From the NCBI GenBank assembly GCA_030426355.1, contig JAUHYQ010000003.1, positions 310,001 through 374,000 of the forward strand: a stretch of 64,000 nt of DNA. The letters are read 5' to 3'. This stretch comes from Gammaproteobacteria bacterium (GTDB taxonomy: Bacteria > Pseudomonadota > Gammaproteobacteria > Steroidobacterales > GCA-2729495). The notes under the pieces were generated by a model. The model made no database searches. It saw only the letters and a list, made by a program, of their open reading frames with translations, and was not told the origin of the DNA. The translations under genes and the position numbers were made by a program. Below are positions 23,003-43,791 of the stretch, in pieces; within the stretch, counting starts at the first letter, position 1, and every line of letters begins with the position of its first letter.

Positions 23003-23404
23003 TTAACTGCAACCCTCTCGCCGTAATCTGAAACCATTTTTTATAACCCGCTTCACACGGCTTTCCAGAGCCTGCTGATCGGGGTGGCCCGGCGTGATAC
23101 TGATCAGTCGGACCCGGCCATCGCTCGGGTGACTGGCTTCGGCGACATAACCCAAAGCCACCATGTTGTTTACCAGTCGCGAAACCGTGGATGGCGAGAT
23201 GTTGAGGGTTCTCGAGATGTCGGTGTTGTTGGTTGGGTCGCTATAGTAAATTGACTTCAAGCCAATGTAGTTGCCGATGCGGAGGCTGTTCAGCGTTGTA
23301 TCGCCATCAAACTGGTCTGCAAGAAGATTAAAAATCTCAAACATCAGTTCCTGAACTTCCTGATCGGAAATATCAATGAGTGGTCGGGTGGTCGAAGTAT
23401 CCAT
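23003..23404 (-). CDS. MarR-type winged-helix transcriptional regulator
   Basis: This 133-residue protein has a helical N-terminus and a winged helix: NNTDISRTLNISPSTVSRLVNNMVALGYV is the helix-turn-helix and EASHPSDGRVRLISIT the wing. MarR dimers bind palindromes and often repress neighbouring genes and themselves. It diverges from the first PEP-CTERM gene across a 276-base intergenic region that carries a perfect inverted repeat (23517-23538), one candidate operator. The ligand cannot be predicted. Confidence 0.8.
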   Translation of the reverse strand: MDTSTTRPLIDISDQEVQELMFEIFNLLADQFDGDTTLNSLRIGNYIGLKSIYYSDPTNNTDISRTLNISPSTVSRLVNNMVALGYVAEASHPSDGRVRLISITPGHPDQQALESRVKRVIKNGFRLRREGCS

Positions 23405-23516
23405 GTGCTTGGCAAATATCCTGATGAATTTGATTTGGTGTTAATTGTTATCCGCGTGCCTGATTTCCACACACTGCGCATTATCACTCTTTGCATATAG
23501 CAAATTTCATAAAAAA

Positions 23517-23538
23517 ATAGTTTCGAAATAGAAACTAT
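23517..23538. promoter_or_regulatory. Perfect 8-bp inverted repeat in a divergent intergenic region
   Basis: ATAGTTTC and GAAACTAT flank six bases (GAAATA). The site lies 113 bases upstream of the MarR-type start codon and about 120-140 bases upstream of the start point predicted for the sigma-54 promoter at 23631. It could be a MarR operator or an enhancer site for a sigma-54 activator. The second arm is partly echoed by TATAGAAAC at 23544-23552. Confidence 0.55.
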
Positions 23539-23630
23539 CGCGTTATAGAAACAGTTCTTCCCGGCATCGACCCTCACATGTAGCTTGTCGTCTATGGCGA
23601 ATTACTGCTGCTAAAACCCGAGTACCACGG

Positions 23631-23646
23631 GGGCAGAAAAGTTGCC
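23631..23646 (+). promoter_or_regulatory. sigma-54-like promoter of the first PEP-CTERM gene
   Basis: GGGCAGAAAAGTTGCC fits TGGCAC-N5-TTGCA with exact GG(10)GC spacing and a perfect TTGC core. The predicted start point is near 23657, leaving a leader of about 24 bases that contains the Shine-Dalgarno GAGGGG before the ATG at 23681. The geometry agrees well with the gene. Confidence 0.65.
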
Positions 23647-23680
23647 TATAACTTAAATGATTCTTTTGAGGGGAATGAAT

Positions 23681-24448
23681 ATGCGTCGATTAGTCATGCG
23701 GCTTTCATTAGCAGTTGGAAGCTTGATCTTTAGTATTGCGGCAAACGCGGCATTGGTATCGTATTCCGTTACCGGTTCCTGGGACGGAATGCAGACTTGG
23801 AATCCGGGTCAAATCGGCGCCAATACGCTGTCGACCACGGCGAATGGCGGCCCAGAGATGGCAGTGTCAGGCGTTGTTACCTTCGACGATGCGACCGGTG
23901 TGGTTTCCTATATCGAGCTCATGCAGGTCGGCACGCTGACCTCTAACTGGGATCTGAACCCCGATTATCCGAATACGCCGGAATATGACACGGTAACCAT
24001 GAGTGATTACCACTGGAAATCAGCCGGCTCAGAAATGCGCCTGTTGACGGGCACATCGGTTTGCAACGGTGCCGTAAATGCTGATTGTGGCCCGGGTATG
24101 CAATACGGTGGCAATTACATGGGTCGCGGCGGCCCACTGGAGAACTTTGGGTATCTGGTGGCGCTGACCGACTGGGTTGGTGCTGACAATTACTATGCAT
24201 ACGGCGACACGCTTGACGGCCCCGGTTTCGCAGGCACCGTCGATGTTAATAATCTGTTGGATCCTTTCGCCATCAATACCCTCACGTCCTGGGTTGGTGG
24301 TTTCGTGCCGCTGGCTGCAGCGGGTGAATATAACCTGTTGCTGGGATCACAGGTTCCGACAATCGTGCCCGTCCCGGCCGCAGTGTGGCTGTTTGGCTCG
24401 GCGCTGGGCCTGCTCGGCTTGCGTCGCCGCCATTTGACTCGCAGCTAG
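23681..24448 (+). CDS. PEP-CTERM sorting-domain protein
   Basis: The ATG at 23681 is chosen because GAGGGG ends seven bases upstream; ATGs at 23657 and 23675 are less well placed. A signal peptide (residues 1 to about 24, ANA-A) is followed by a Gly/Asn/Thr-rich beta-type region, and the C-terminus has VPVPAAVWLFGSALGLLGL and an Arg cluster (RRR), the PEP-CTERM anchor. Exosortase recognises and cleaves this tail during export, leaving the protein in the matrix or on the surface. No exosortase gene lies in the window. The rest of the sequence has no known domain. A strong terminator follows. Confidence 0.88.
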   Translation: MRRLVMRLSLAVGSLIFSIAANAALVSYSVTGSWDGMQTWNPGQIGANTLSTTANGGPEMAVSGVVTFDDATGVVSYIELMQVGTLTSNWDLNPDYPNTPEYDTVTMSDYHWKSAGSEMRLLTGTSVCNGAVNADCGPGMQYGGNYMGRGGPLENFGYLVALTDWVGADNYYAYGDTLDGPGFAGTVDVNNLLDPFAINTLTSWVGGFVPLAAAGEYNLLLGSQVPTIVPVPAAVWLFGSALGLLGLRRRHLTRS

Positions 24449-24500
24449 AGATATCTCTATGGAGCCACGAGCATCGTTCGTTGGCATCCATAGGAGTTGC

Positions 24501-24537
24501 AAAGGGTCCGTCCGGGGAACCGGACGGACCCTTTTTA
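24501..24537 (+). terminator. Rho-independent terminator after the first PEP-CTERM gene
   Basis: Arms AAAGGGTCCGTCCGG (24501-24515) and CCGGACGGACCCTTT (24520-24534) form a perfect 15-bp stem with a 4-base loop and a T tract. It separates the two PEP-CTERM genes, so the second needs its own promoter. Confidence 0.95.
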
Positions 24538-24552
24538 AAATTAGGGTCCGTT

Positions 24553-24580
24553 TTGCACCTGCAATTATGCGGCAGTGCAA
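24553..24580. repeat. Imperfect inverted repeat upstream of the second PEP-CTERM gene
   Basis: TTGCAC (24553-24558) and GTGCAA (24575-24580) are exact inverted copies, and CTGC/GCAG extends the symmetry with one base offset. It lies about 115-142 bases before the start point predicted for the sigma-54-like promoter at 24668, the same distance at which an inverted repeat lies before the first PEP-CTERM gene. The sequence differs from that repeat, so a common regulator is not shown. Confidence 0.4.
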
Positions 24581-24667
24581 CATAGAGCGGATTTTGTCAG
24601 CTTTGCCATTTCAGGCTGCTCTTACAGGTCATCATATAATACAGGCACTTGTGCGGCTCAATGAAAC

Positions 24668-24683
24668 TGGCTCTGCGACTGCA
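24668..24683 (+). promoter_or_regulatory. Candidate sigma-54 promoter of the second PEP-CTERM gene
   Basis: TGGCTCTGCGACTGCA matches TGGCAC-N5-TTGCA at all but two positions and has exact GG(10)GC spacing. The predicted start near 24695 gives a leader of about 245 bases that contains the whole riboswitch. A sigma-70-like alternative lies closer at 24727-24755. Confidence 0.5.
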
Positions 24684-24726
24684 TTTCCCAGTTCCAAATG
24701 TATTTTCGCGGTTATGTAAAAACGCT

Positions 24727-24755
24727 TTGATTCGTTGTCCCAAACCGGTTACATT
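24727..24755 (+). promoter_or_regulatory. Candidate sigma-70 promoter before the riboswitch
   Basis: TTGATT and TACATT are separated by 17 bases, each matching four of six consensus positions. Transcription would start near 24762, about 12 bases before the riboswitch aptamer. The position is attractive but the sequence match is modest. Confidence 0.4.
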
Positions 24756-24773
24756 CGGTTCGTCGATGAAAAG

Positions 24774-24890
24774 AGGACAAAGGCAAAGCCAGTGCGAGCT
24801 GGTGACGCAAAGCTACGGATCTCAAGCTTTTCGATCGTTTTACCAAGTGATCGAACGGTGCTTGACGAAGGGGAGACAGCCGGGCCGCAA
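24774..24890 (+). ncRNA. Cyclic-di-GMP-I (GEMM-I) riboswitch aptamer
   Basis: The hallmark elements appear in order: ACAAAGGCAAAG, a hairpin CCAGT-GCGA-GCTGG closed by a GNRA tetraloop, then TGACGCAAAGCTACGG, a long variable arm (CAAGC...CGATC/GATCG...GCTTG), and the closing segment GAGACAGCCGGGCCGC. The GNRA loop and the GACGCAAAGC core are the most conserved features of class I c-di-GMP aptamers. The boundaries are approximate. It precedes the PEP-CTERM gene at 24941. Confidence 0.9.
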
Positions 24891-24894
24891 CACT

Positions 24895-24935
24895 CTAATT
24901 TCTAATAAGACAATCTATAAATATTTGGAGATTAG
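24895..24935 (+). promoter_or_regulatory. Putative expression platform hiding the Shine-Dalgarno
   Basis: CTAATTTCT (24895-24903) can pair along its full length, with two G-U pairs, with GGAGATTAG (24927-24935). The latter contains the Shine-Dalgarno GGAG, and the ATG follows at 24941. This gives a translational switch directly after the c-di-GMP aptamer. Whether ligand binding opens or closes the hairpin cannot be told from the sequence. Confidence 0.65.
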
Positions 24936-24940
24936 TTGTA

Positions 24941-25747
24941 ATGAAGAAATTACTATCAGTAACAGCTCTAGCGCTGGTTTCGTTTAGCGCAAACGCTGCA
25001 ATCGTGTCGGTGAATATCGATAGCGGTGACTGGGCTAGCAGCACTAGCAGCAACAACAACGCCGATGCTTCGGTTAACAGCACTCGGCTCTACGATAATG
25101 GCGCTGCAATTCCGTTGGTTGAACTTGGTGCGCCTAATCCTGCTTTCCAGTGGAAAGATGACGCTGCTGTGGCACCCTACCCGGTCAAGGCGGGGCTTAC
25201 TCCGTTCGATGGCACCTACGGTGGCAGCATCACTTATGATGATTCCACTGGTGACGTTATCGGCGGTTCGCTCGTTATCACAGGTAAAGTTGGTGATCAG
25301 GTTGTCGTAGGTGGCAATAGCTGGTGGCTGCGTATCTGGGAAGACGTAACCGTTGACCTGGCTACTGGTCTTGGCACCGTAGGCAGCATTGACTGCGCAC
25401 GCACGGACTTTTCGGCGGCCAACTGTTCACCGGGTGTTACAGGCGGCATGCCGTTTGCCTGGAACATTAGTGACGGTGCGTTTACACCTGGTGCTTGCGC
25501 CCTGCCCGGTGGTTCAAACGCTGGTGATCCTGCTTGTGGACCGGATGCACCTGCTCGGTTGAAAGCTACGTTCGACGGCACCACGCTGTCTCTGCTGGTT
25601 GAAGGCCGTAATCTGGCGAACCCGAACGGTACTGACACTTTGAATGATTTCACTTTGTCGACTACCGTTGTGCCGGTTCCTGCAGCTGTATGGCTGTTCG
25701 GTTCGGCTATCGGCCTGCTCGGCTTCCGTCGCAAGATGAAAGCCTAA
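24941..25747 (+). CDS. PEP-CTERM protein under c-di-GMP riboswitch
   Basis: This 268-residue exported protein has a signal peptide (residues 1 to about 19, NA-A), a Ser/Asn/Gly/Thr-rich body with beta-sandwich character, a cysteine-containing stretch (about residues 145-200) and the tail VPVPAAVWLFGSAIGLLGF followed by RRK. The tail is nearly identical to that of the PEP-CTERM protein upstream, while the bodies differ apart from a short shared composition. Exosortase would process it at the membrane. GGAG lies 11 bases before the ATG and is the likely ribosome binding site, itself in the switch hairpin. Confidence 0.9.
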   Translation: MKKLLSVTALALVSFSANAAIVSVNIDSGDWASSTSSNNNADASVNSTRLYDNGAAIPLVELGAPNPAFQWKDDAAVAPYPVKAGLTPFDGTYGGSITYDDSTGDVIGGSLVITGKVGDQVVVGGNSWWLRIWEDVTVDLATGLGTVGSIDCARTDFSAANCSPGVTGGMPFAWNISDGAFTPGACALPGGSNAGDPACGPDAPARLKATFDGTTLSLLVEGRNLANPNGTDTLNDFTLSTTVVPVPAAVWLFGSAIGLLGFRRKMKA

Positions 25748-25790: not shown

Positions 25791-25816
25791 AAAACCCCGC
25801 TTCGGCGGGGTTTTTC
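25791..25816 (+). terminator. Rho-independent terminator after the second PEP-CTERM gene
   Basis: AAAACCCCGC, a TTCG loop and GCGGGGTTTTT form a compact GC stem with a T tract. Another perfect inverted repeat (GCTAAGT/ACTTAGC, 25763-25779) lies just before it. Confidence 0.95.
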
Positions 25817-25830
25817 TTTGCCTGAATAAA

Positions 25831-25916
25831 TGGGGTCGGAGTAAAAATAATTGGGGTCGGAGTAAAAATGGCATCACCAACAATTGGGGTCGGAGTAAAA
25901 ATGGCATCACCGCCAT
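25831..25916. repeat. Direct repeats, including a 33-bp tandem pair
   Basis: The 18-mer TGGGGTCGGAGTAAAAAT occurs at 25831, 25852 and 25885. The last two belong to consecutive 33-base units (25851-25883 and 25884-25916) that share the first 28 bases, including ATGGCATCACC. The second unit runs into the last codons of the minus-strand hydrolase. No transposase or terminal inverted repeat accompanies it. Similar GGGGTCGGAGTAAA words are scattered in some gammaproteobacterial genomes. Confidence 0.85.
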
Positions 25917-26860
25917 TGGGGGGCCGCTTCGATCATGGCCTTTGCGACCGGGACCGCGCCTTCTTCATGCACATAGTGGCCTGAATCGGCAACTTCTACG
26001 ACATCCACACGCGTGTTGCTCAGGCCCTCGATCAATTGCTGCAGTTCTGCATCATCCTTGTTGCGATCCTGTTTGCCCCAGGCAATGAGCGTCGGTACGG
26101 TTACCTGCGCCAGCGGTGCCAATCCGACCGGGTCTTCATACTGCCCCATCATGCTGGTGGCACCGACAAGATAATCGTCCGTGCGGGCTGCGAGTTGCAG
26201 GTCGTCCATGACCTGTTCTGTCACGATATCCGGATTTACGTATGACACCTTGAGAAAGCTTTCGCGAAATTCACGATCACCGAATTGTTTGGCTGCGATG
26301 CGCTGGAACGGAAAGGGCAGGTAGCGGGTGATCTTCGGTACCCCGTCGTTGATGATGCCGGGGTTCATCAATATCAGCCCGCTCACTTCCGGCTCGTTGA
26401 CGGCCATCAGCAGCGCGATGGCGCCGCCCATTGAGTGACCGCCTACCGCGTAGCGCTTCAGACCAATGGCACGAGCGAACGCGCCCATGGCGCTCGCCAT
26501 GCCGCCGGCCCGATAGTCGAAGTCGGCCGGTTTTGCCGACAGGCCGAAACCGGGCATGTCTGCGGCGATAACGTAGAAGTCATCGGCCAGCAGCGGCGCA
26601 AGCAGTCTGAAGGACTGCAGGCTGTTGCCCATGCCATGCAGCAGCAGGACATTGGGTTTGTCAGGTGCCGGCGTGCCATAACTGCGGTAGCGAAACTCCA
26701 GGCCGCTGGCCGTGGCGAACTTGTCTTCAGCGGTTGCGAGTTCCCTTGCACTGACGGTTTCCCCCCCGGTGGGCCAGTAAGCGTAAGCAATCAGGCCTAG
26801 GTACAGCACGCCAATGATCAGTATCAGGGTTGATACCAGACGCTTCAGAATTTTGGTCAT
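25907..26860 (-). CDS. Alpha/beta hydrolase, membrane-anchored
   Basis: This 317-residue protein has an N-terminal hydrophobic helix (about residues 8-28, signal anchor) followed by an alpha/beta hydrolase domain. The oxyanion motif LLHGMGNS, nucleophile Ser in GGHSMGG, Asp in WGKQDRN and His in DSGHYVHEE give a complete triad. It is probably an esterase or lipase-like enzyme outside the cytoplasm; the substrate is unknown. Its last codons lie within the tandem repeat at 25884-25916, so its present C-terminus may be repeat-derived. Confidence 0.85.
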   Translation of the reverse strand: MTKILKRLVSTLILIIGVLYLGLIAYAYWPTGGETVSARELATAEDKFATASGLEFRYRSYGTPAPDKPNVLLLHGMGNSLQSFRLLAPLLADDFYVIAADMPGFGLSAKPADFDYRAGGMASAMGAFARAIGLKRYAVGGHSMGGAIALLMAVNEPEVSGLILMNPGIINDGVPKITRYLPFPFQRIAAKQFGDREFRESFLKVSYVNPDIVTEQVMDDLQLAARTDDYLVGATSMMGQYEDPVGLAPLAQVTVPTLIAWGKQDRNKDDAELQQLIEGLSNTRVDVVEVADSGHYVHEEGAVPVAKAMIEAAPQWR

Positions 26861-31579: not shown

Positions 31580-34189
31580 ATGACTTTTAGTACCCGACTG
31601 CAATCGGTCATATTATTTTTGGTATGGCTTACGCTTGCGAGCACTTTTTCCGTCGCGGTTCGGGCACAATCCCCGGCCGAACTCGATCCGGTGCAGCTAA
31701 ACCTTCTGCAAAAAATGTCACCCAGTGAACGGGAAGCCTTGCTGAACAATTTTCTGAGTTCTGGCGGCAGCGTGGCGCAATCGCCCTTGGTATTTCCCCA
31801 ATTGCTCACCAGTGAGCAGGATGATGGGGCTCCGCCGGCCGAGATCGTGATTTACGATGCCGAAGGCAATCCGCTGTTGGACGAATACGGCAAGCCGGTG
31901 GTTATTACCCCGGAAACGCTGGACGAGTTGAAAGCGCAATCAGCCGCTAGCAATGCTGAAAGTGACGTGCCTTTTTTCGAGCGTGAAATTCGCCTGACAC
32001 CGTTCGGGTACGACTTGTTTGAAGGCGTGCCGACCACCTTCGCTCCGGCGACCGACATTCCCGTGCCGAATGAGTACCGCATGGGGCCAGGCGATACACT
32101 GGATGTGCAGTTGTTTGGCAAGGAAAATCGTCAATACAGCCTGGTGGTAACCCGTGACGGCACCATTAACTTCCCGAGTATCGGCCCGATCAATGTCATG
32201 GGCCGCAGTTTTCAGGAGCTTAAACAGGACATCCTGGATCGCGTAGCGGAACAATTGATAGGCACCAGCGCTGCAGTCACGATGGGTTCATTGCGGTCAA
32301 TAAATGTTGTGGTGGCCGGTGATGCCAAGCGGCCCGGTTCTTACACTGTCAGCGGTTTGTCCACCATCACCAATGCATTGTTTGTCAGCGGTGGTGTCAG
32401 CGATGTGGGGTCGTTGCGGAAAATCCAGTTAAAGCGCGACGGCAGGGTGGTCACCACGCTGGACCTTTACGATTTGCTGCTGGGTGGTGATGCGCGTGAT
32501 GACCAGCGGCTGGAAAGCGGCGATGTGATTTTTATTCCGCCCATCGGTGCCACAGTCGGCATTGGCGGGTACGTAAAACGGCCGGCCATTTATGAGTTGC
32601 GCGGCAAGACCGCGAGCGCCAGTGCGGTGATCGATTTAGCCGGTGGTTTGCGTGCCGATGCGTATCCCGAAGGTGCCCGCCTGGAAAGGATTGAGGGCGA
32701 CTGGCGACGGTCGTTCCGCGGCATTGACCTGAATACTACGCAGGGCCGGGAGCAGTCGGTGCAGGCCGGCGATATCTTGCTGGTGCCCCCGGTACTGCTT
32801 GATTTTGATGACGGTTTGAGCCTCGTCGGCCATGTGAAACGGCCGGGCAGTTTTGAATGGCGTCCGGACATGCGGCTGACCGATCTTATTCATAGCCTGG
32901 ACGACTTATTGCCGCAGGCCGATCTGGAATACGTGCTGATTCGTCGCGAGACGCGCCCCGAAAAGCGCGTTCAGGTTATTTCCGCCAACCTTGCCGAGGC
33001 GTTGCGCAATCCGAATGCGACGGAGAACGTGGCTTTGCAGGCGCGCGACCGGGCATACGTTTTCTCGCTGGTGGACGACCCGGAGAACCCGTTTAGCCGA
33101 AGCGTGGTTGTGAGCGGTCTGCTGGAAGAACTGAGCCGGCAGTCGGGGGCCGACACGCCCTATGAGCGGGTGACGGTGCGCGGCGAAGTTCGGGTTCCCG
33201 GTGAGTACCCCTACGAAGCGGGCATGCGTGTCAGCGATTTGCTGCGGGCTTCCGGGGCGTTGCTGGAGTCGGCATACACCGATTCAGCCGAGCTCACGCG
33301 GTACAGCGTAATCGGGCAGAACACGCGCACTTCCGAGCTGGTCGAACTGAGCCTCACCGATGTGCTGAGCGGCAACAGTGAACTTGATGCGCTGCTGCGT
33401 CCGGGCGACTTTCTTACCGTGCGTCGCATTCAGGATTGGGCGAATGAAGACACCATTACCCTTGAAGGTGAAGTTCGTTATCCCGGTACCTATTCGATTC
33501 GGCAGGGCGAAACCCTGTCGTCAGTAATTAAGCGTGCCGGCGGTCTGACCGATGCCGCGTTTGCTGAGGGCAGTGTTTTTCTGCGTGAGGAGCTGAGACT
33601 GCGTGAGCAGCAGCAGCTGGCCACTCTGCGCGAGCGCTTGCGTAGCGATATTGCGTCAATCTCGTTGCAGGCAGCCACTACACTGGAAGACACCTCAGTC
33701 GTTGATGCCAAAAGCGTGGGTACGGCCTTGCTGGCATCGCTCAATTCCATAGATGCAACCGGCCGCCTGGTAATTGATTTGCCAGCCTTGCTGGCTGAAG
33801 GGGGTGAGGCTGTCGATGTGTTGCTCAAAGACGGTGATCAACTGCTCATTCCGAAACAGACACAGGCGGTCACGGTGATCGGCGAGGTTCAGTTTGCCAC
33901 CTCTCATCTGTATGCCGAAAAACTAAAGCGTGACGACTATATTGATCGCAGTGGCGGACTGGCCCCCAATGCGGCTAAGAAAGGCATCTATGTAGTGCGT
34001 GCCAACGGTGCCGTGCTGGCAGCCGGCCGCAAATGGGGCGGTGAGGCTACACAGATTCAGCCGGGTGATACGATCGTTGTGCCTCTGGATACCCAGCGTG
34101 GCTTCAGGTTGCAATCCTGGGCCAGCATTACCAAGATCGCATACAACACCGCAGTTGCTGTCGCGGCCATTAACGGTATCTCTAACTAG
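31580..34189 (+). CDS. SLBB-rich polysaccharide export outer-membrane protein (Wza-like)
   Basis: This 869-residue protein has a signal peptide (residues 1 to about 33), a low-complexity N-terminal region, a Poly_export domain (from YRMGPGDTLDVQLFGKE) and about six SLBB units (for example VAGDAKRPGSYTV, GGYVKRPAIYEL, VGHVKRPGSFEW, RGEVRVPGEYPY, EGEVRYPGTYSI, IGEVQFATSHLY). A typical Wza is about 380 residues with two SLBB units, so this is an extended form. It would form the periplasmic-outer-membrane conduit for a polysaccharide. It heads the export operon, 2 bases before the Wzz-like gene. Confidence 0.9.
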   Translation: MTFSTRLQSVILFLVWLTLASTFSVAVRAQSPAELDPVQLNLLQKMSPSEREALLNNFLSSGGSVAQSPLVFPQLLTSEQDDGAPPAEIVIYDAEGNPLLDEYGKPVVITPETLDELKAQSAASNAESDVPFFEREIRLTPFGYDLFEGVPTTFAPATDIPVPNEYRMGPGDTLDVQLFGKENRQYSLVVTRDGTINFPSIGPINVMGRSFQELKQDILDRVAEQLIGTSAAVTMGSLRSINVVVAGDAKRPGSYTVSGLSTITNALFVSGGVSDVGSLRKIQLKRDGRVVTTLDLYDLLLGGDARDDQRLESGDVIFIPPIGATVGIGGYVKRPAIYELRGKTASASAVIDLAGGLRADAYPEGARLERIEGDWRRSFRGIDLNTTQGREQSVQAGDILLVPPVLLDFDDGLSLVGHVKRPGSFEWRPDMRLTDLIHSLDDLLPQADLEYVLIRRETRPEKRVQVISANLAEALRNPNATENVALQARDRAYVFSLVDDPENPFSRSVVVSGLLEELSRQSGADTPYERVTVRGEVRVPGEYPYEAGMRVSDLLRASGALLESAYTDSAELTRYSVIGQNTRTSELVELSLTDVLSGNSELDALLRPGDFLTVRRIQDWANEDTITLEGEVRYPGTYSIRQGETLSSVIKRAGGLTDAAFAEGSVFLREELRLREQQQLATLRERLRSDIASISLQAATTLEDTSVVDAKSVGTALLASLNSIDATGRLVIDLPALLAEGGEAVDVLLKDGDQLLIPKQTQAVTVIGEVQFATSHLYAEKLKRDDYIDRSGGLAPNAAKKGIYVVRANGAVLAAGRKWGGEATQIQPGDTIVVPLDTQRGFRLQSWASITKIAYNTAVAVAAINGISN

Positions 34190-34191
34190 TC

Positions 34192-35103
34192 ATGCCGGCG
34201 CAGCATCAAGGTGAAGAACTCACCCTCGGCGAGCTGCTGAGAGTCCTGAAACGCTATCGACTGGTGCTGGCAAGTGTCTGGGTCGTCTGTGTCGCGGCCG
34301 CTCTGCTTGCAGCGCTGCTTGCAGCGCCGGTATATCGGGCGGAGGCGCTGGTGGCTGCCGCCAGTGACACCTCGTCGGCCGGCGGGGATTTGTCGTCGAT
34401 TATTTCGCGCTTTTCATCGGTGCCGGGTATGGGGGCACTGGGTCGGCTGTCGCAGCAAAACACGCTGGCAGAAGGCATGGTGACATTACGCTCGCCACAG
34501 TTTCTGATTGATTTTATTCGCTCAGAGAATCTTATGCCGGTGTTGTTTGCATCGCAGTGGGATGCAGAAAACAACACGTGGCTGGCAGCCGATGAAGGCG
34601 ATGTGCCGACACCAGAAGACGCTTATGTGTTCTTCAAGGAAGAACTGCTAAGCGTTATCGAGGACAAGGCAAACCCCGGAATCTTGGCGGTTGCCATTGA
34701 ATGGACGGATCGCGAGCAAGCCGCGGCGTGGGTGAATCTGCTGATAAGCCGCCTGAATGAGCGTTTGCGCAGCAAGGCAATTGATGAGGCCAATCAGACC
34801 ATTGATTACCTGAACAAGGAACTCGAAACAGCGCGCATCGTGGAAGTCCGGCAGGCGATTTATTTCATGATTGAAAGTCAGATTAATCTGCGCACCATGG
34901 CCAATGTACGGGAAGAGTTCGCTTTCGAGGTTCTGAGTCAGGCTTTAGTGCCGGACGCCGATCGCTATATCAGCCCTAACAGGCCTTTTATGGTCGTCAT
35001 AGGCCTCGCAATCGGCTTTTTGCTGGGCGTTTTTTCGTGCTTTCTGCTGTTCGCCCTTGATCGGCTGCGCGCCGATATTAATGGTCAGACCTCCTCGCGT
35101 TAG
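34192..35103 (+). CDS. Wzz-family chain-length/co-polymerase protein
   Basis: This 303-residue protein has two transmembrane helices (about residues 24-46 and 262-285) flanking a mostly helical periplasmic domain, the layout of Wzz and the non-kinase part of Wzc. No Walker motifs or Tyr cluster follow the second helix, so it is not a BY-kinase. It would set polysaccharide chain length in a Wzy-dependent pathway and contact the exporter. It overlaps the flippase gene. Confidence 0.82.
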   Translation: MPAQHQGEELTLGELLRVLKRYRLVLASVWVVCVAAALLAALLAAPVYRAEALVAAASDTSSAGGDLSSIISRFSSVPGMGALGRLSQQNTLAEGMVTLRSPQFLIDFIRSENLMPVLFASQWDAENNTWLAADEGDVPTPEDAYVFFKEELLSVIEDKANPGILAVAIEWTDREQAAAWVNLLISRLNERLRSKAIDEANQTIDYLNKELETARIVEVRQAIYFMIESQINLRTMANVREEFAFEVLSQALVPDADRYISPNRPFMVVIGLAIGFLLGVFSCFLLFALDRLRADINGQTSSR

Positions 35104-36385
35104 CTTGGATAAGCATTTTATCGATCTGCTGCGCGGAGCCACGGGAGGGCTTTTAGCCCGCGTTATCGCTGCCATCGCGGTTTTTCTGTTCGGTGTTTAT
35201 ATAGCGCGGTTACTGGGCGCGGCCGACTCGGGCCTGTTCTATCTGGCGCTGGCGCTGGTGACGGTTTTGGCGGTGGTCTGCCGGGTCGGGCTCGATGGCT
35301 CAGTAGTGCGCTTTGTGGCTGCCCACCTGGCCCGTGATGAAGCGCCTGCGGCCGGCACAATTTACCGGCGCAGCGTTGCACTGATCAGCATACTGGCCCT
35401 CGCGACCAGTATTCTGCTGTACGCCGGCGCAGATACTGTTTCCAGCGCGCTGTTTGACAAGCCTGAGCTGAGCGACGTGTTGCGGGGATTGTTATGGCTA
35501 CTGTTCCCGCTTGCCCTGCTGATGATTCATGGTCAGTTTCTGCAAGCCGAAAAGCGTGTTGCGGACGCCGTGCTGGTGCAAACCGGCTTGTTGCCGCTAT
35601 TGAGTGTCGCTGCGTTTGCATTGCTGCCGGTTCAATGGTCGTTAAGCAATGTTGTCATGACATATGTGTGCGCGGCTGTCGTGACACTGGTAATCAGCGT
35701 TGCATGGTATTTGCGCTCAAGTGGTTTAGCGGCGCTACCGGGAGTCCGCTACGACTTCGGCCCGCTCGTCGCGAGTGCCCGCTCACTGGCAGTGTCCGAC
35801 TTGATAAACAAAGTTGTGCAGCCCTGGGCGCCGGTCATTTTCCTCGGGCTGTGGGGCACAGCCACCCACATCGGGTTATTTGCCGCTGCCAATCGACTCG
35901 CCGCTTTAACGGTTTTTGCTACCCTGCCGGTTAACCGGATGTTGGCACCAAAAATGTCGGCTTTGTGGGCCGAAGGCGATCGTGCGACTTTCTTCCGTTT
36001 GTCGCGACAGGCTGCGCTGCTGATGGCTGGGGTGTCATTGCCGGTTACATTGGCGCTGATACTGTTGCCTGAACTCTTGCTCGGCTTGTTTGGCAAGGAG
36101 TTCGTCGTGGCGCGCAGCTTATTATGGGTTCTGGCCGCAGGGCAGCTGTTTAATGCATTGACAGGCCCGGTACGATCAATGCTGATCATGACAGGGCATG
36201 AGAAAGATCATCGTATGTCGAGTATTGCGGGTGGCATAGTGATACTGCTATTGAGCATAGTCCTGATACCCCAAATGCAGGCCATGGGCGCGGCGATTGC
36301 GTCCGCAGCGGGTATGGTCATTAATAATCTCTATGCGGCTTGGCTGGTTTGGCGTCGGCTTGGAGTGGTACCGCTGTGGAGGTGA
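35081..36385 (+). CDS. Wzx-type polysaccharide flippase
   Basis: From the ATG at 35081 the product is 434 residues with about 12-14 transmembrane helices and the MOP-superfamily pattern, including an N-terminal LLRGATGGLLARVIAAIAVFLFGVYIARLLG region (split over the first helix). It would flip lipid-linked repeat units across the inner membrane. The TTG at 35057 and the TTG at 35105 are alternative starts; none has a strong Shine-Dalgarno. It overlaps both neighbours. Confidence 0.85.
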   Translation: MVRPPRVSLDKHFIDLLRGATGGLLARVIAAIAVFLFGVYIARLLGAADSGLFYLALALVTVLAVVCRVGLDGSVVRFVAAHLARDEAPAAGTIYRRSVALISILALATSILLYAGADTVSSALFDKPELSDVLRGLLWLLFPLALLMIHGQFLQAEKRVADAVLVQTGLLPLLSVAAFALLPVQWSLSNVVMTYVCAAVVTLVISVAWYLRSSGLAALPGVRYDFGPLVASARSLAVSDLINKVVQPWAPVIFLGLWGTATHIGLFAAANRLAALTVFATLPVNRMLAPKMSALWAEGDRATFFRLSRQAALLMAGVSLPVTLALILLPELLLGLFGKEFVVARSLLWVLAAGQLFNALTGPVRSMLIMTGHEKDHRMSSIAGGIVILLLSIVLIPQMQAMGAAIASAAGMVINNLYAAWLVWRRLGVVPLWR

Positions 36386-37749
36386 CTTTACTGTTCCTGG
36401 TGACGGTCGTGGCCTTCGCCGGGTTACTGCTTTACGACTGCAAAGCGGCCTTTTTGGTGGCTGTGCTTTTCTACGGCATCTATCCGCGGTTCTTTTCGCT
36501 CGGATTCGCCGATGATGGTTTTGCGATGACTATGCAGCGTGCGATGTTGCTGATGTTGCTTGCCATGTACTTGCTGCGGCTCGTCTGGGGTTCAGCTGAA
36601 ATCAGGCACGGGTGGCAGGTGCTTTCAAGGCACCCGGGGGCACTGATCGCACTTTTGACCTATTTAATGGCGCGGCTCGTCGGCAACCTCTTTACCGGAA
36701 GGCTTGATCTCAGCGTAGTCGGGCAGCTGTTAAGCGAAAGCCTGATCAGTATTTTTGTATTGTTGCTGGTAGTGAGCTACGTGCGCACACGCAAGGACAT
36801 TGTGTTGCTTTTGACACTTGTTATGGCGTCATTGTTCTTTAATCAACTTGTTTCGGTCTACGAATTTATTGCGCAAGAGCCCATATTTCCGGAGGGATTG
36901 AGCCTGCGCTACGAAGTGGGCGGGCGCGGTGAAGAAGTGCTTGCGGGCCGGGTTCGTGATTCGGCATTTCGTGCCATGGGCATTTTTGACAACCCGCTGA
37001 AACTGACAGCGCTGCTGGGTATGGCGTTGCCACTTGTTATATATCTCGCACGGTGCGGCACAAATATGCTCACCCGGGTTGTAGCGGCTGCGTCGGTTGT
37101 ACTTGCGTTGCCCACGGCTTTCTTCTCAGGCTCGCGTGCGGCTATCGGAGTCGTCTTGCTGGTGTTTGCATGGTACGTCTACCTTTGGGTTACGCGGCGC
37201 ATGTCCGCGTGGGGAAGACGTCTGGTGGCAACCGCTGGTGTGTTGTGCGCGGTGGCTGTTGTGGCCTTGTTTGCCGATCAATTGCTGAATGAATTGTTGT
37301 TCGGGGATGCCTATGCGCGCAGTACCGAAGCCCGTTTCCGCGCATACGTGACGGTGCCTCTGCTTCTGATTGAAGCGCCCCTGTTCGGTTTCGGGTATGC
37401 GCGCAATATCGTCGAGACGCTCGATTTGGGCGCGCTGGATCCTTTTTACCTGAGGTTGGCACTGGAAGGCGGGGTGGTGTCGCTGGCGGGGTTTATTGCA
37501 TTCATGGTTGTTGTCGCTCGCCTTTTGGGGCCCGTTGCGGCTGGCGGTAATTCGTCGGACACCGCAGCAGATGAGGCTTTGGCTCGGGCATTGCGGGTTT
37601 CGCTGGCGGTCATTGCACTGCTGGCCTTGCTGCTGACCTTATCGTACGTGCGGATGTACTTATTTTTGTTTGCCGGCGTGGCTATGGTGTTGCTGGATCT
37701 TTGGTTGCAGGATCAACAGTCCGCCACGATTGCAGATCAATCCCGGTAA
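36376..37749 (+). CDS. O-antigen polymerase/ligase-like membrane protein (Wzy/WaaL)
   Basis: This protein of about 457 residues from the GTG at 36376 (GGAG ten bases upstream) has roughly 11 transmembrane helices and a large periplasmic loop between about residues 175 and 220, with GRVRDSAFRAMGIFDNP. A later GSRAAIGV segment and FGFGYARNIVETL fit the Wzy_C domain. Between flippase and transferases it is more likely the polymerase than a lipid A ligase. Its last 68 bases overlap the convergent sulfotransferase gene. Confidence 0.82.
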   Translation: MEVTLLFLVTVVAFAGLLLYDCKAAFLVAVLFYGIYPRFFSLGFADDGFAMTMQRAMLLMLLAMYLLRLVWGSAEIRHGWQVLSRHPGALIALLTYLMARLVGNLFTGRLDLSVVGQLLSESLISIFVLLLVVSYVRTRKDIVLLLTLVMASLFFNQLVSVYEFIAQEPIFPEGLSLRYEVGGRGEEVLAGRVRDSAFRAMGIFDNPLKLTALLGMALPLVIYLARCGTNMLTRVVAAASVVLALPTAFFSGSRAAIGVVLLVFAWYVYLWVTRRMSAWGRRLVATAGVLCAVAVVALFADQLLNELLFGDAYARSTEARFRAYVTVPLLLIEAPLFGFGYARNIVETLDLGALDPFYLRLALEGGVVSLAGFIAFMVVVARLLGPVAAGGNSSDTAADEALARALRVSLAVIALLALLLTLSYVRMYLFLFAGVAMVLLDLWLQDQQSATIADQSR

Positions 37750-38614
37750 GCGATTCCAGGTGCGTGATTTCATCGCGGTAGAAGTCTGCCAGTTGTGACC
37801 GGGTCGCCGGATTCATGATGGGCTTATCGGCCGGGGCGGTGTTGAGCGTGCGCAGCGCCTGACGCAGTCGGGTGCGCAAACTGAGCGGTATTAGTTTGTG
37901 CACGAGTCCGTGGGGCAGACCCTTTTGAACGGCCCTCTCCAGTGCAGCAATCCGCGGCCGCCCGTAAACATTTTTGCGACGCAGTTGCGGCAAAAACCCG
38001 GGGTTTACACCGATAAAGCGGAACAGTCGTGCGCAGCATGCTGCCGGCTCGCTGCGCACCGCATCGTAGAGTTCCAGATGTATCTGTTCGCGCGGAAAGT
38101 AGCGGAAGTAGGCTTCCAGCTGCCGGGCATACAGGCCATGTGTCAGGTAGCTTCGGTCGACCTTGTCACGCAGTGTTTGCAGTCCGCCCCTCTGATCCGC
38201 TGTGATGGCATCTTCGAAGCTGGCAGTATGTTCGTTACCCGTTTTACGTGCTTGCAGGTATCCGGAAAAGGCCCTTTCTACAGGGTTTCGCAGCAATACA
38301 ATCAACTTCAGGTCGGGGTTGAAGTCTTTGAGCCGTTGCGCCACTTCCTCAGCCAGAAACAGGTAGTGCACATAGCCGTGCAGAACTATTGGCTCGTCGC
38401 GGTGTCCCTTAAAATGCCCGGCAAACCAGTCAAGGCCTTTGTCAAAGTACTCCGGTTTGCAGAAAAACGGAAAGTCTTTCATTGCCGGGTTGCCATAGAT
38501 GTCGGGGTGTTGGGAGAGCCAGTCGTAAACAGCGGTAGACCCGCTTTTTTGTGCTCCAATTAGAATCAGATTTGGCAGCACTAAATCTGACGATGATGCG
38601 TTCTTGTCAGGCAT
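37682..38614 (-). CDS. Sulfotransferase (PAPS-dependent)
   Basis: This 310-residue protein has the 5'-phosphosulfate loop LILIGAQKSGSTAVYDWL (about residues 15-32) and the 3'-phosphate site LRNPVERAFSGY. It would transfer sulfate from PAPS to a carbohydrate hydroxyl, in line with the polysaccharide genes around it. The fold resembles heparan N-sulfotransferase-type enzymes. Its 3' end overlaps that of the polymerase-like gene by 68 bases on the opposite strand, which is tight even for this dense locus. Confidence 0.9.
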   Translation of the reverse strand: MPDKNASSSDLVLPNLILIGAQKSGSTAVYDWLSQHPDIYGNPAMKDFPFFCKPEYFDKGLDWFAGHFKGHRDEPIVLHGYVHYLFLAEEVAQRLKDFNPDLKLIVLLRNPVERAFSGYLQARKTGNEHTASFEDAITADQRGGLQTLRDKVDRSYLTHGLYARQLEAYFRYFPREQIHLELYDAVRSEPAACCARLFRFIGVNPGFLPQLRRKNVYGRPRIAALERAVQKGLPHGLVHKLIPLSLRTRLRQALRTLNTAPADKPIMNPATRSQLADFYRDEITHLESLTGIDLQSWRTVDPATKDPATP

Positions 38615-38659
38615 ACTTGGCGGGGTTGGTATTCACGGTTGTCATTCTAAAGATACGTT

Positions 38660-39982
38660 ATGTTTTTTTCTCGTTTCAAAATTTCTGCATTGGCTCTGAC
38701 TGTCAGTATGATCTTCGGTGCTGCTGTGACAACTTCTTGCGCGGCGGAAACCCCTGCGGCCGGGTTTTACGGAATTATTAGCAATCCTTTCGTGCAGCTC
38801 GATCATGAGTTTACAGACAATTTACGACTTAGCGTGGAGCTGGTGCCGGAATTTGGCGGCGATCCGGCGCGTGACAGTTTTCAGATAGAGATTGCCGGTA
38901 ACAATGTCCGGGTTACAGGTAATACCCGTGCTGCCACGCTTTTCGGCACGGATCGTGTCGCCGAGATGCTGTCGCAGCAGAGCGGCAAGCTCGCGGATGG
39001 CATCTTCGCGGATCAGGCCGGTTTGCGCGTGAGGGCTCAGCATCTGGTGATGCGCAACGCCAGCTTGCCGGACATGAAAGCTCTGATTGATAAAGCCCGC
39101 CGCGCCCGCATGAACACATTGATGCTGTACATTGCGGACGATGTGCAGTTGCTGGCGGCAGGTATCAGGCCGCTTCCCAATGCAATGACCCGCGATGATT
39201 TTCGCGCCGTGATCGAGTATGCCAAAGCCAGCGGGATGAACGTGGTTCCGCATCTTCCCTTGTTGACCAAACAGCACCGGTTTTTCAAGGGTACGGCGCC
39301 CGAGCTGATGTACAACCAGGCAACGTATGACCCGCGCAACAAAGAGACTGTGCGTCGCGTGTTTGCGCATTTGGAAGAAATTATCGACCTGGCGCAGCCA
39401 ACCGATATAAACATCGGGCATGACGAAGTAGAGGGTGCCTTCCCGCGCATTGCGCGGGCAAAGTGGACTGCCGCGCAGCGCAAAAAGTGGCCTGCTGCCG
39501 ATGAAGACATGTTGCCGCCCGAGCTGTTTCTTGATTCGGTACGGGAGCTTCATGCGTTCCTCGCAGAGCGTGGTATACGCACCTGGATGTGGGGTGACAT
39601 GCTCATTGCCTACGAGGAGTTTCCTGACATGGTCCGGCGCAATATGCACGGCAACCACGGCTACGCGGCCCTCAGGACAAAGCTGCCGAAGGATATCGTC
39701 ATCTGCGACTGGCATTACTGGGATTCAGCTGCCTTCCCCACCGCCAAAGCCTTCGCAGATGCGGGGCACCAGGTCTTGGGCGCCACCCGTGAGCGTACTG
39801 ACAATATTTCCGGCTTCAGCCGCTACGTCGCGGGTATGGGTGAGAGAGGCAGCGAAAGTAAGGGTTTGGGCATGATAGCCACGCTGTGGAATTTGCAAAA
39901 TCAGGCTGATCCCGCATTGGTGGATGATGTAATCGCCCGTTCGGGCCGCGCTTTCTGGTCTCCGGATTCGGCTACCAGGTAA
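38660..39982 (+). CDS. GH20-like glycoside hydrolase, exported
   Basis: This 440-residue protein has an N-terminal signal or lipoprotein-like sequence (residues 1 to about 28; cysteine at 27), a GH20b-like N-terminal domain and a TIM barrel with INIGHDEVEGA, in which Asp255-Glu256 correspond to the catalytic Asp-Glu pair of beta-N-acetylhexosaminidases. It lacks the classical GGDEV wording, so substrate specificity is uncertain. It is probably periplasmic and could trim or recycle the polysaccharide or peptidoglycan sugars. It is the only hydrolase inside the export locus. Confidence 0.7.
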   Translation: MFFSRFKISALALTVSMIFGAAVTTSCAAETPAAGFYGIISNPFVQLDHEFTDNLRLSVELVPEFGGDPARDSFQIEIAGNNVRVTGNTRAATLFGTDRVAEMLSQQSGKLADGIFADQAGLRVRAQHLVMRNASLPDMKALIDKARRARMNTLMLYIADDVQLLAAGIRPLPNAMTRDDFRAVIEYAKASGMNVVPHLPLLTKQHRFFKGTAPELMYNQATYDPRNKETVRRVFAHLEEIIDLAQPTDINIGHDEVEGAFPRIARAKWTAAQRKKWPAADEDMLPPELFLDSVRELHAFLAERGIRTWMWGDMLIAYEEFPDMVRRNMHGNHGYAALRTKLPKDIVICDWHYWDSAAFPTAKAFADAGHQVLGATRERTDNISGFSRYVAGMGERGSESKGLGMIATLWNLQNQADPALVDDVIARSGRAFWSPDSATR

Positions 39983-40820
39983 ACTCTTCACCGAGCATTT
40001 CGTAGAGCGCTTGATTGTGCGGACGAAAATAGTTGGTGAGCTCATCGCGCAGCTGCGGGTCGACCCTGTCTTTATGTGGCGCAACATTGCGTGCTCTTAG
40101 CTCGCCAATTGTTCTGCGGGCATCTACGCCGGCAAATGCATAAACCCGTTGCATGTACTCCGCTGGTCGTTCGAACAGCCCTTCGCTATCAATTATGAGT
40201 AGCTGATCTTTCTCAAACAGCTGCATGTAGCGATCAAGCTGTTCTGCGTATCGCCCGCGTGCTTTATACGAGTGACGAATATAGTTGGGCGATGAGTAGT
40301 TCTCACCGATTACCGCCAGCCGCTGCTCCTCGGCAGCAAAGGCATCGGCCATAGCGAATGTTTCACCGCCGTTGCGGCGCGTGTGAAAATAGTGTGAGAC
40401 CGCTCTTTCAACCGGATTCCGCAGCACCGCGATCAGTTTTGCGTTTGGTACCTGCTCTTTTATTCGTGATGCGGCCAGCGGATGGAACAGATACAGCGGC
40501 GTGGTTTCGAAGGCAATTTTGCCAGCGGCAACCGCCCCGGTTGGGAAATGCGCACGATACCAGTCTGTGCCTTTAACAAAATTATCGGTGTGAGGGTCGA
40601 GGCCGCCGTCAAAGTAATGAACTTCCTTTTCGAAAGGCGGTACTATTTGCGGATGCTGGGTCAGCCAGGCGTGGAGGCTGGTTGTGCCGGCCTTTTGCGC
40701 ACCAATAACAATAAGATCGGGCAGTCGCCTGGAGGCCGCTGTGGCGCGCCGGTAAGCCCAGAGTGCGCGTTTGACCGGTTGCTTCAACAAGTCTGGAATG
40801 CGGGTTTTCGACGAAGCCAT
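39972..40820 (-). CDS. Sulfotransferase (PAPS-dependent)
   Basis: The ATG at 40820 is preferred over the TTG at 40859 and gives 282 residues. The PAPS motifs are LIVIGAQKAGTTSLHAWL (5'-PSB) and LRNPVERAVSHYFHTR (3'-PB). It is clearly related to the sulfotransferase at 37682 (about the same motif order) but not identical. It probably sulfates a carbohydrate. The gene overlaps the GH20-like gene end by 11 bases and diverges from the next sulfotransferase across 38 bases. Confidence 0.9.
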   Translation of the reverse strand: MASSKTRIPDLLKQPVKRALWAYRRATAASRRLPDLIVIGAQKAGTTSLHAWLTQHPQIVPPFEKEVHYFDGGLDPHTDNFVKGTDWYRAHFPTGAVAAGKIAFETTPLYLFHPLAASRIKEQVPNAKLIAVLRNPVERAVSHYFHTRRNGGETFAMADAFAAEEQRLAVIGENYSSPNYIRHSYKARGRYAEQLDRYMQLFEKDQLLIIDSEGLFERPAEYMQRVYAFAGVDARRTIGELRARNVAPHKDRVDPQLRDELTNYFRPHNQALYEMLGEEFTW

Positions 40821-40858
40821 GAACGGTTTTAAAAAGGAGCAGCTCCACTGGGGCGACA

Positions 40859-41551
40859 ATGTATTGCAAGGAATATAACTGCTTATTCGTTCATATACCT
40901 AAAACGGCTGGCAAGAGTATCGAAAGTTACTTTCTCGGCTTGCTGGGATTGCGCTGGGAGGACAGAGCTCCTCTGTTGCTGCGCGCGAATGACGATCCCG
41001 CCCGCGGGCCTGAGCGCCTGGCGCATATGACTGCCCGCGAATACGTGGAGCTTGGCTATTTGACTCAGGATCAGTTTGATTCCGCCTTTCGCTTTGCGTT
41101 CGTGCGGAACCCATGGGCGAGACTGGTTTCAGAATATCGCTATCGCAAACATTATCTGCGCTTCAGCTTTAGTGATTTTGTTTTGCATCAACTTCCGCAA
41201 GCAAGCATGCGCGATACCTATCGCCACATTCTGCCGCAAAGTGAGTTCTTGCTCGATAACAACGGTGAGCTCAGCGTCAATTATGTGGGTCGCTTCGAAA
41301 ACTTGCAGGCGGACTTTAATGAAGTGTGCAAGTTGCTGAAGCTGAGCCCGGTGACGTTGCCGCATGTGGATGACGGGTCCGGTGCCGCACTGACAGCCCT
41401 CGACCGACTCAGGGAGTTGCTGGGCATGCGTAAAGAGGCTGCCCATAAGCATTATTCCAGCTATTACGATGCCGAGACGCGGGGCCGGGTGGCTGAACTT
41501 TATGCGCAGGATATCGAGGTGTTCGGCTATTCGTTTGAAAGCCGCCCGTAG
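40859..41551 (+). CDS. Sulfotransferase family 2 protein
   Basis: This 230-residue protein has the variant PAPS loop VHIPKTAGKSIESYF (residues 11-25) and a 3'-site FVRNPWARLVSEYRYRK. That pairing is typical of family 2 sulfotransferases, such as carbohydrate sulfotransferases. It is shorter than and different in type from the neighbouring sulfotransferases, so several sulfation positions could be served. It diverges from the gene at 39972. Confidence 0.87.
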   Translation: MYCKEYNCLFVHIPKTAGKSIESYFLGLLGLRWEDRAPLLLRANDDPARGPERLAHMTAREYVELGYLTQDQFDSAFRFAFVRNPWARLVSEYRYRKHYLRFSFSDFVLHQLPQASMRDTYRHILPQSEFLLDNNGELSVNYVGRFENLQADFNEVCKLLKLSPVTLPHVDDGSGAALTALDRLRELLGMRKEAAHKHYSSYYDAETRGRVAELYAQDIEVFGYSFESRP

Positions 41552-41563
41552 TGGTCAGGGAGA

Positions 41564-42565
41564 TTATTTGGCAGGGTAGCCAAGCCGGTGCATGGCTTGA
41601 TTGAAGCTGTCCTTTACCGCAGCGGGTAGCTCCACATGCGGCGGTTGGCGAACGGGGCGCAGTATCTTTCTGGCATAGCCCAGGACAACCGGGTCAGACG
41701 ATAACCCGCTGAACTGAAAAAGTTTGTTCAGGGTGTCGTCTGGAGATTCTGTCAGTTCTTCGTAGCGCACCATAAGCGTGTCATCGGGGTGGCGTTCCAG
41801 CAGCGCCAGCCCTTCACGCATGCTAAGTGTCCACTCAACAGCCGCCATGACGGTGTGATCGTCCATCGCTGCTATATCGTCTGCGTGGGGCCCGAGTTCC
41901 GGGTCCGGTCGCACCAGTTGCTCAACCAGCGTGTGCCATTTCCGATTGTCGGTTCCCCACCAATCCGCAGTTCCGCCATTGTCGGATTGCCCATGAGTTT
42001 CAGACCATTTTGCGATCGAGCCACAGGTTGCGTAACCGTTCCTGACCAGGAACAGGAACTGAGCGTCCGGGAACAGCGCTTTTACAAAGTCTGTCCGGAA
42101 AATCAGCTCCGGGTATTTATCGAGCACACGTTTGTTACGCGTTATCTCCAGATAGGCGCTGTACTGGTTGCTCATCGCACGCTTTATGGTCGCGGTGACG
42201 TCTTCTGCGCCCAGACGGTATCGTGCCGGAGCATCGGTGTAATTACCGTTGAGGTCTTCGTGCGGGTAGGCCACATGCCACATTAACTTTGGTTCGTTGA
42301 GCCAGCCTATATCCCGGTGTAACGAGAGAATCTTGCCCAGAACGGTTGTTCCGGATCGGCCTGTGCCCAATATGAAAAGCGGCCGCTGCACTTCGTTTAG
42401 CGGTTGGCCACGCGCGACTGTTGCGGCCCGGCGCTTTAACCAGGGATTGATCCAGCGACCTTTCGTGGTTAGCGGACGACCTTCGAAAAAGGCGTAGCTG
42501 ACTGCCCGCGCCAGAGCCCGGGAGGGCCTTGTCAGGATGTATTGTTTATCGAGTTGTGCAACCAC
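41564..42565 (-). CDS. Sulfotransferase family protein
   Basis: This 333-residue protein has FILGTGRSGTTVLGKILSLH as the 5'-phosphosulfate loop and FLVRNGYATCGSIAKWS as the region of the 3'-phosphate site. It starts at a GTG and lies 5 bases downstream of the glycosyltransferase at 42571, in a minus-strand run of three genes. It is a fourth sulfotransferase-fold protein in 5 kb. The acceptor is probably the locus polysaccharide, by context. Confidence 0.87.
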   Translation of the reverse strand: MVAQLDKQYILTRPSRALARAVSYAFFEGRPLTTKGRWINPWLKRRAATVARGQPLNEVQRPLFILGTGRSGTTVLGKILSLHRDIGWLNEPKLMWHVAYPHEDLNGNYTDAPARYRLGAEDVTATIKRAMSNQYSAYLEITRNKRVLDKYPELIFRTDFVKALFPDAQFLFLVRNGYATCGSIAKWSETHGQSDNGGTADWWGTDNRKWHTLVEQLVRPDPELGPHADDIAAMDDHTVMAAVEWTLSMREGLALLERHPDDTLMVRYEELTESPDDTLNKLFQFSGLSSDPVVLGYARKILRPVRQPPHVELPAAVKDSFNQAMHRLGYPAK

Positions 42566-42570
42566 GTCGC

Positions 42571-43785: not shown

Positions 43786-43791
43786 GACGGT

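Follow-up and report, generated by a model that had tools for sequence, protein, structure and literature searches.

The window, by which we mean the whole analysed stretch of 64,000 nucleotides from contig JAUHYQ010000003.1 of a gammaproteobacterial genome, contains at positions 24941-25747 of its plus strand a reading frame for a PEP-CTERM-type protein of 268 aa with a signal peptide-like N terminus, and homologs with the same kind of tail are present in relatives. The tail has the sequence VPVPAAVWLFGSAIGLLGFRRKMKA, and the PEP-CTERM sorting tail is encoded at 25670-25735 (+), where TIGR02595 (cut-off 16) gives 14.7 bits in the protein scan, i.e., below the cut-off, and 19.1 bits in the genome search, i.e., above it; the protein has no Pfam match. 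The genome also encodes an exosortase (PF09721, 243.7 bits, G000:C5:164931-165692), and a PEP-CTERM-type gene is thus present where the first-pass annotation of this DNA had placed one, downstream of a c-di-GMP riboswitch. The gene and its leader look monocistronic, as judged from a promoter-like pair of hexamers and from flanking terminator-like hairpins. The upstream hairpin (24504-24531, +), with a 12-bp stem and a GGAA loop followed by a T-run, separates the riboswitch unit from an upstream PEP-CTERM gene, and the other one lies 3' of the gene at 25795-25810 (+) and is also followed by a T-run; both were read from the sequence and are absent from the pattern scan. The candidate sigma-70 promoter TTGATT-17 nt-TACATT occupies positions 24727-24755 (+), and its hexamers and spacing are identical in the congener G003; only 8 of its 12 positions agree with the consensus, which is below the threshold of the pattern scan and explains why it is not listed there. 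Transcription would start at about 24757-24763. Right after the downstream hairpin, at about 25830-25920, there are three direct repeats of TGGGGTCGGAGTAAAAAT, two of which are followed by GGCATCACC.

The second PEP-CTERM gene, 23657-24448, lies directly upstream and has no riboswitch of its own: a degenerate second aptamer in front of it was ruled out by a cmscan of 23300-25000, which at E values up to 1 returned only the known one. A relative of this gene is also found upstream in G003 (L064), and its protein is resembled, by eye, by the product of a riboswitch-led gene of another genus, G035. A MarR-type regulator adjoins PEP-CTERM genes on the opposite strand in both genera (window 23003-23404, -; L009 551-1003, -), the likeness of the two regulators being judged by eye. 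About 6 kb downstream, at 31580-45132, lies a cluster with polysaccharide export SLBB protein, chain-length-type, flippase-like and ligase-like genes as well as several sulfotransferase-like and glycosyltransferase-like genes, all of them named by eye except SLBB. It is from the sorting tail and this exopolysaccharide-type cluster that we infer a possible matrix role for the 268-aa protein. Several PEP-CTERM-type genes are also clustered in another region of the same genome (L067, G000:C8:247000-264000), where no Rfam riboswitch is found at cut-off.

The aptamer of the leader extends from 24772 to 24892 on the plus strand, and 48 nt separate its end from the start codon of the PEP-CTERM-type gene. 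In a covariance-model search it matches Rfam RF01051 (c-di-GMP-I, GEMM-I) with 49.3 bits and an E value of 1.3e-6, above the gathering score of 35, which confirms the earlier claim of a GEMM-I aptamer; membership of the sister family RF03167 (c-di-GMP-I-GGC) is ruled out, since the score of 48.8 bits lies under the cut-off of 59. The covariance model R1, made from 26 aptamers, gives 63.6 bits, the window sequence itself being part of its training set. The strings quoted in the first-pass annotation are indeed found at the positions it gave, namely the core strings AAAGGCAAAG (24779-24788) and GACGCAAAGC (24804-24813) and the closing segment GACAGCCGGG (24875-24884), each occurring once on the plus strand of the window, and the GNRA-capped hairpin with a GCGA loop is present at 24788-24803 (+) both in the covariance model and in forced folds. 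Residues G20, A47 and C92 of the Vc2 aptamer are kept as G24782, A24809 and C24888, on an assignment that presumes the Vc2 sequence and numbering. The core sequence, the GNRA-loop hairpin, the contact residues and the position in a 5' leader are thus shared with RF01051, from which the window aptamer differs in an elongated variable stem (121 nt matched to the 87-position model) and in the closing helix P1, which appears to be displaced outward and built from a Shine-Dalgarno (SD)-like 5' strand. The three residues are named as important for the interaction with c-di-GMP in the available part of one report (PMC11218506). We regard the window aptamer as a regular representative of an established class, which would be expected to bind c-di-GMP. 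It has the lowest score among the four c-di-GMP-I aptamers of its genome (49.3 vs 74.5-79.9 bits), the other three of which precede thioredoxin-like, FAD-oxidase-like and M23-peptidase-like genes (names by eye), and such a score would be expected if the aptamer were degenerate and its regulation lost. PEP-type aptamers in other genomes, however, score similarly (35.2-54.6 bits with RF01051), the contact residues are retained, and the leader is kept in G003 although the protein has diverged to 47% identity; we therefore consider the loss of regulation very improbable.

The aptamer is present in 39 of the 40 genomes of the family, with 175 RF01051 matches in about 109 Mb. Among 29 PEP-CTERM loci, the window's own excluded, 2 (2/20 + 0/9) have an Rfam aptamer directly before the gene, and these are the 47%-identical homolog in G003 and the PEP-CTERM gene of G035. 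The two next-nearest homologs (G030, 45% identity) have no aptamer of their own, and the G030 aptamer precedes the preceding PEP-CTERM gene. A protein search of species genomes yielded 79 PEP-CTERM loci (429 kb), which are partly non-independent as several share one genome, and with acceptance at E below 0.001 R1 found 14 aptamers in 11 of them, compared with about 0.7 expected for 429 kb from the family rate. The association between the aptamer and PEP-CTERM genes is therefore a recurrent one. Thirteen of the 14 aptamers are on the strand of the PEP-CTERM match, and for 11 the first downstream gene is PEP-CTERM-type (by motif and by eye); of the remaining three, L095 has a masked protein, a cobalamin riboswitch intervenes in L131, and the L128 aptamer precedes an oxidase-like gene. 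Methylomonas, Methylocaldum, Mangrovimicrobium, Desulfobacterium and Desulfosarcina are among the organisms named in the locus records. Weak model matches in L019 (18.9 bits) and L086 (14.7 bits) were dismissed as chance.

A second model, R2, was made from 15 aptamers of PEP-CTERM loci and run against the family as well as 276 class members, of which 40 were matched; because it was trained on PEP-type aptamers, its yield is no measure of enrichment, for which the 79-locus count serves instead. The fetched loci contain 94 distinct aptamer matches and 38 leaders with a PEP-CTERM-type frame downstream, five of them from the 29 class loci. This set includes L135 (first copy), L097 (second copy), L167, L168 and L095, which were added by eye, L155, with its start codon at offset 43, and L202, kept despite an implausible offset of 15; L224 was dropped as a false PEP match. 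At its own cut-offs, Rfam (RF01051 or RF03167) confirms 34 of the 35 leaders in the loci searched and misses L197:3129, which is the same as L085:1834; the other three of the 38 (the window copy, G003 and G035) are confirmed as well. In the 38 leaders, most of which were judged by eye for the contact residues, the equivalent of G20 is C in L150 and that of C92 is T in L203.

Several of these aptamers have an unusual size or arrangement. That of L095 (CP070671.1, 3406-3662) is 257 nt long by R1 and R2 owing to a long insertion in the variable stem and 67 nt long by Rfam (35.2 bits, cut-off 35), and the probable PEP-CTERM gene that it precedes has its protein masked after the N terminus; this leader is counted among the 21 considered below. 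Paired c-di-GMP-I aptamers lie close together in G002:C122, G038:C23, L181, L202, L135 and L097, with gaps of about 140-170 nt in the first three and with one aptamer per gene in L135 and L097. One genome of the same taxonomic order, G188, has 16 c-di-GMP-I aptamers (L215-L229), of which nine are 114 nt long; the genes that they precede are diverse and often secretion-like, and three of the products end in aspartate-rich runs.

Downstream of the aptamer in the window, the string CTAATTTCT (24895-24903) is complementary to the SD segment GGAGATTAG (24927-24935) at 9 of 9 positions, two G.U pairs included, each of the two occurring once on the plus strand. The full pairing proposed earlier is therefore real, and it gives a hairpin of -10.3 kcal/mol that hides the SD segment in the predicted folds. 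Judged alone, this hairpin is modest and suggestive rather than strong: a 9-bp match to the SD arises by chance in 272 of 20,000 base shuffles of 24889-24925 (37 nt), and 12 of 200 dinucleotide shuffles fold equally well (z -1.74). The entire leader has no folding advantage over shuffles, 50 of 200 of which are as good. A nearly isoenergetic SD-hiding fold (-9.5 vs -10.3 kcal/mol) pairs GCAAC (24887-24891, +), which contains C24888, the presumed C92 equivalent, with GUUGU (24935-24939), and the pairing probability of C24888 is 0.33. Pairing and fold predictions give the strand CUCUAAUUUCUAA (24893-24905, +), hereafter the switch strand, two partners: its part CUAAUUUCUAA pairs with the SD segment, and its CUCU (24893-24896) pairs with AGAG (24772-24775) of the 5' P1 strand GAAA-AGAG (24768-24775, +), a helix that emerges in forced folds and pairing tests and can be extended by pairing GAAA with UUUC (24899-24902). 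This P1 helix is only 4 bp long (8 with a bulge).

The predicted SD accessibility in the window is 0.02 in the unconstrained fold and also 0.02 when the aptamer core is forced, from which it follows that the SD hairpin alone is not a switch; it rises to 0.20 when P1 is forced in addition, and forcing the extended P1 gives 0.28. When the part of the switch strand that P1 would use is blocked, accessibility changes from 0.03 to 0.18, compared with 0.08 for random blocks. The outline of the translational switch given in the first-pass annotation was thus right and gains comparative support in the 21 leaders described below, but the hairpin on which it relied does not switch by itself, and the competing P1 helix (AGAG with CUCU) had been missed. 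That the hairpin is compatible with the forced core would suit a translational OFF switch, in which the aptamer locked by c-di-GMP leaves the switch strand to the SD, as in Vc2/tfoY of Vibrio cholerae, and an unliganded misfold has a freer SD; we find this unlikely, because the unbound fold hides the SD equally and no SD-freeing state is predicted. A terminator-type platform in the window is ruled out, as there is no T-run after the hairpin between 24893 and 24941, i.e., between the aptamer and the start codon, and the pattern scan lists no terminator there.

The competition between the two pairings becomes clearer in the leaders taken as a group. In many leaders of the family, the strand that follows the aptamer is CCUUCUC-like (CUCU in the window) and has two complementary partners, namely the SD (GGAGGAU etc.) and a purine-rich stretch (GAAGG, AGAGG) that borders the aptamer on its 5' side. 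For pairing tests, 21 of the 38 leaders, which are related to one another, were picked by the analyst because the gene is near and a terminator-like T-run is absent; the 17 left out are five leaders of the family whose offset is 15 or at least 71 (L153, L160, L202, L208, L209), the terminator-type L119 and L135 (twice), and L140, L142, L097 (twice), L166-L169 and L171. On average, the duplex between the switch strand and the SD of the same leader has -10.7 kcal/mol, as against -9.2 kcal/mol with swapped SDs, and 3 of 20,000 permutations attain the former value; for the 5' flank the means are -8.7 kcal/mol within a leader and -7.7 kcal/mol after swapping (307 of 20,000). Neither within-leader energy is attained in any of 500 shuffles. 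With 17, 15 and 12 mutually dissimilar leaders retained, the counts out of 20,000 were 63, 103 and 313 in the SD test and 251, 152 and 677 in a compact P1 test, whereas the full-flank P1 test weakened to 1234, 1313 and 1094. The fit of the switch strand to the 5' P1 strand beyond shuffles speaks against the OFF switch.

The SD is also better hidden in the 21 leaders (median accessibility 0.03) than in 90 PEP-CTERM genes without an upstream aptamer core pattern, the start codons of which were picked by script (0.42, Mann-Whitney p 5e-7). Blocking the P1 nucleotides of the switch strand raises the median from 0.05 to 0.34, whereas equally sized random blocks give 0.19 (Wilcoxon p 2e-4 and 7e-4), although a gain of at least 0.2 is seen in only 9 of the 21 leaders. 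The strongest P1 helices are those of L148 (6 bp) and L154 (7 bp), for which blocking raises accessibility from 0.01 to 0.50 and from 0.00 to 0.55, respectively. In 9 of the 21 leaders, the C92-equivalent base has a probability of at least 0.3 of pairing with the region from the SD to the start codon (0.33 in the window); one of the nine is L203, which has T at this position. Both the blocking effect and the engagement of the C92 equivalent in the SD fold count against the OFF switch, in favor of which it can be said that forcing the core without P1 increases accessibility by at least 0.2 in just 2 of 15 PEP-CTERM leaders.

A further possibility is that the SD hairpin dampens translation constitutively, or depending on temperature, while the aptamer exerts its effect chiefly on elongation or stability of the transcript. 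This would agree with G003, where the SD is hidden regardless of P1 and blocking P1 changes nothing (accessibility 0.01), an outcome accounted for by a second complementary stretch nearer to the SD that can replace the first, and with the terminator-like hairpins carried instead by the riboswitch-PEP leaders of Desulfobacterium and Methylomonas and by the Desulfosarcina locus L131. The preference of the switch strand for its own SD and the lack of a T-run or listed terminator at 24893-24941 of the window argue against it, and we rate a mere damper as quite unlikely, slightly more so than the OFF switch.

The comparative evidence supports, at the family level, both the translational reading and the ON direction. 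For the leader in the window, a translational c-di-GMP ON switch that operates by strand exchange on an apparently monocistronic PEP-CTERM mRNA is in our opinion a moderately probable mechanism. Without the ligand, the strand 24893-24905, at times from C24888 on, would pair with the SD segment at 24925-24939 and keep ribosomes off. Binding of c-di-GMP would stabilise the aptamer and its closing helix P1, the 5' strand of which is itself SD-like (many relatives have a GAAGG-like sequence here, the window AGAG); this strand would capture the switch strand, and the SD would be freed. Two mutually exclusive pairings of one strand find support across the 21 leaders as a group and are weak in the window, which would accordingly be a weak example of the predicted ON switch. 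The ON switch is a prediction from pairing statistics, which do not measure ligand response.

Another type of platform is found in L119 (Methylomonas), L135 (Desulfobacterium, two copies) and L131 (Desulfosarcina cetonica), where the aptamer 3' strand GCCGGGUUGC and a downstream strand form a hairpin followed by a T-run. Since a hairpin that uses the aptamer 3' strand would exclude the binding-competent aptamer, ON regulation is predicted here as well, as described for pilM. The L131 locus (Desulfosarcina cetonica JCM 12296, NZ_BBCC01000005.1, 3861-5273) is an apparent two-input tandem riboswitch: the c-di-GMP-I aptamer (52.3 bits) with its terminator-like hairpin is followed, starting 90 nt further on, by a cobalamin riboswitch (4036-4277, 64.1 bits), then by another terminator-like hairpin, recognised by eye, and finally, at 4500-5273, by a PEP-CTERM-type gene. 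More broadly, the GEMM-I riboswitches of Gammaproteobacteria and Desulfobacterota may include a branch dedicated to PEP-CTERM genes, through which c-di-GMP directly licenses exosortase-sorted surface proteins. In the lineage of the window, an SD-mimicking 5' P1 strand would titrate the anti-SD strand and switch translation ON; terminators overlapping the aptamer 3' strand would serve the same ON logic in Desulfobacterium, Desulfosarcina and Methylomonas, with stacking on a cobalamin riboswitch in Desulfosarcina cetonica. We give this wider scheme an even chance of being correct. To our knowledge, the function and the timing of production of most PEP-CTERM proteins are poorly known, and a direct c-di-GMP sensor on PEP-CTERM mRNAs, if confirmed, would connect the biofilm signal with a large group of sorted surface proteins that are little characterised. 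The aspects that deserve further attention are the recurrence of the aptamer at PEP-CTERM genes and the P1 strand that mimics the SD.

An association of c-di-GMP riboswitches with PEP-CTERM genes has been published before, for one Methylophaga genome: of the seven c-di-GMP riboswitches in Methylophaga nitratireducenticrescens GP59, four are located next to PEP-CTERM or VPLPA-CTERM genes (Table 4 of PMC12530212). In the part of PMC10599522 available to us, c-di-GMP riboswitches and PEP-CTERM genes are not joined. Ribo4-Ribo7 of GP59 resemble the window in lying by PEP-CTERM/VPLPA-CTERM genes with exopolysaccharide genes around; they belong to another lineage, and their location and transcript levels, but no expression platform or direction, are given in the portion of that paper at hand (PMC12530212). 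An SD-mimicking-P1 translational ON platform for class I was not found described in the open-licence literature, to which our search was confined, so that this absence carries little weight. Among characterized systems, Vc2 (tfoY) and Vc1 (gbpA) of Vibrio cholerae share the class I aptamer with the leader in the window. Vc2 also acts on translation, which, according to the text available, is repressed by c-di-GMP (PMC7371385), and so it is an OFF switch, unlike the ON switch predicted for the PEP-CTERM leaders. Vc1 responds positively to c-di-GMP, and its authors, in the sections at our disposal, find neither a terminator nor an anti-SD sequence and consider the mechanism unclear (PMC4744006), whereas in the PEP-CTERM leaders both competing strands are visible, which makes these leaders concrete candidates for ON-type class I platforms. 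A parallel in logic is the pilM riboswitch of Geobacter metallireducens, which, as far as the accessible part of its description goes, is also ON, has an OFF hairpin and a ligand fold that are mutually exclusive, and takes the ligand-contact C into the OFF hairpin, as does the OFF fold predicted here; it senses cGAMP and acts by a terminator, whereas the OFF hairpin predicted for the PEP-CTERM leaders hides the SD (PMC9262584).
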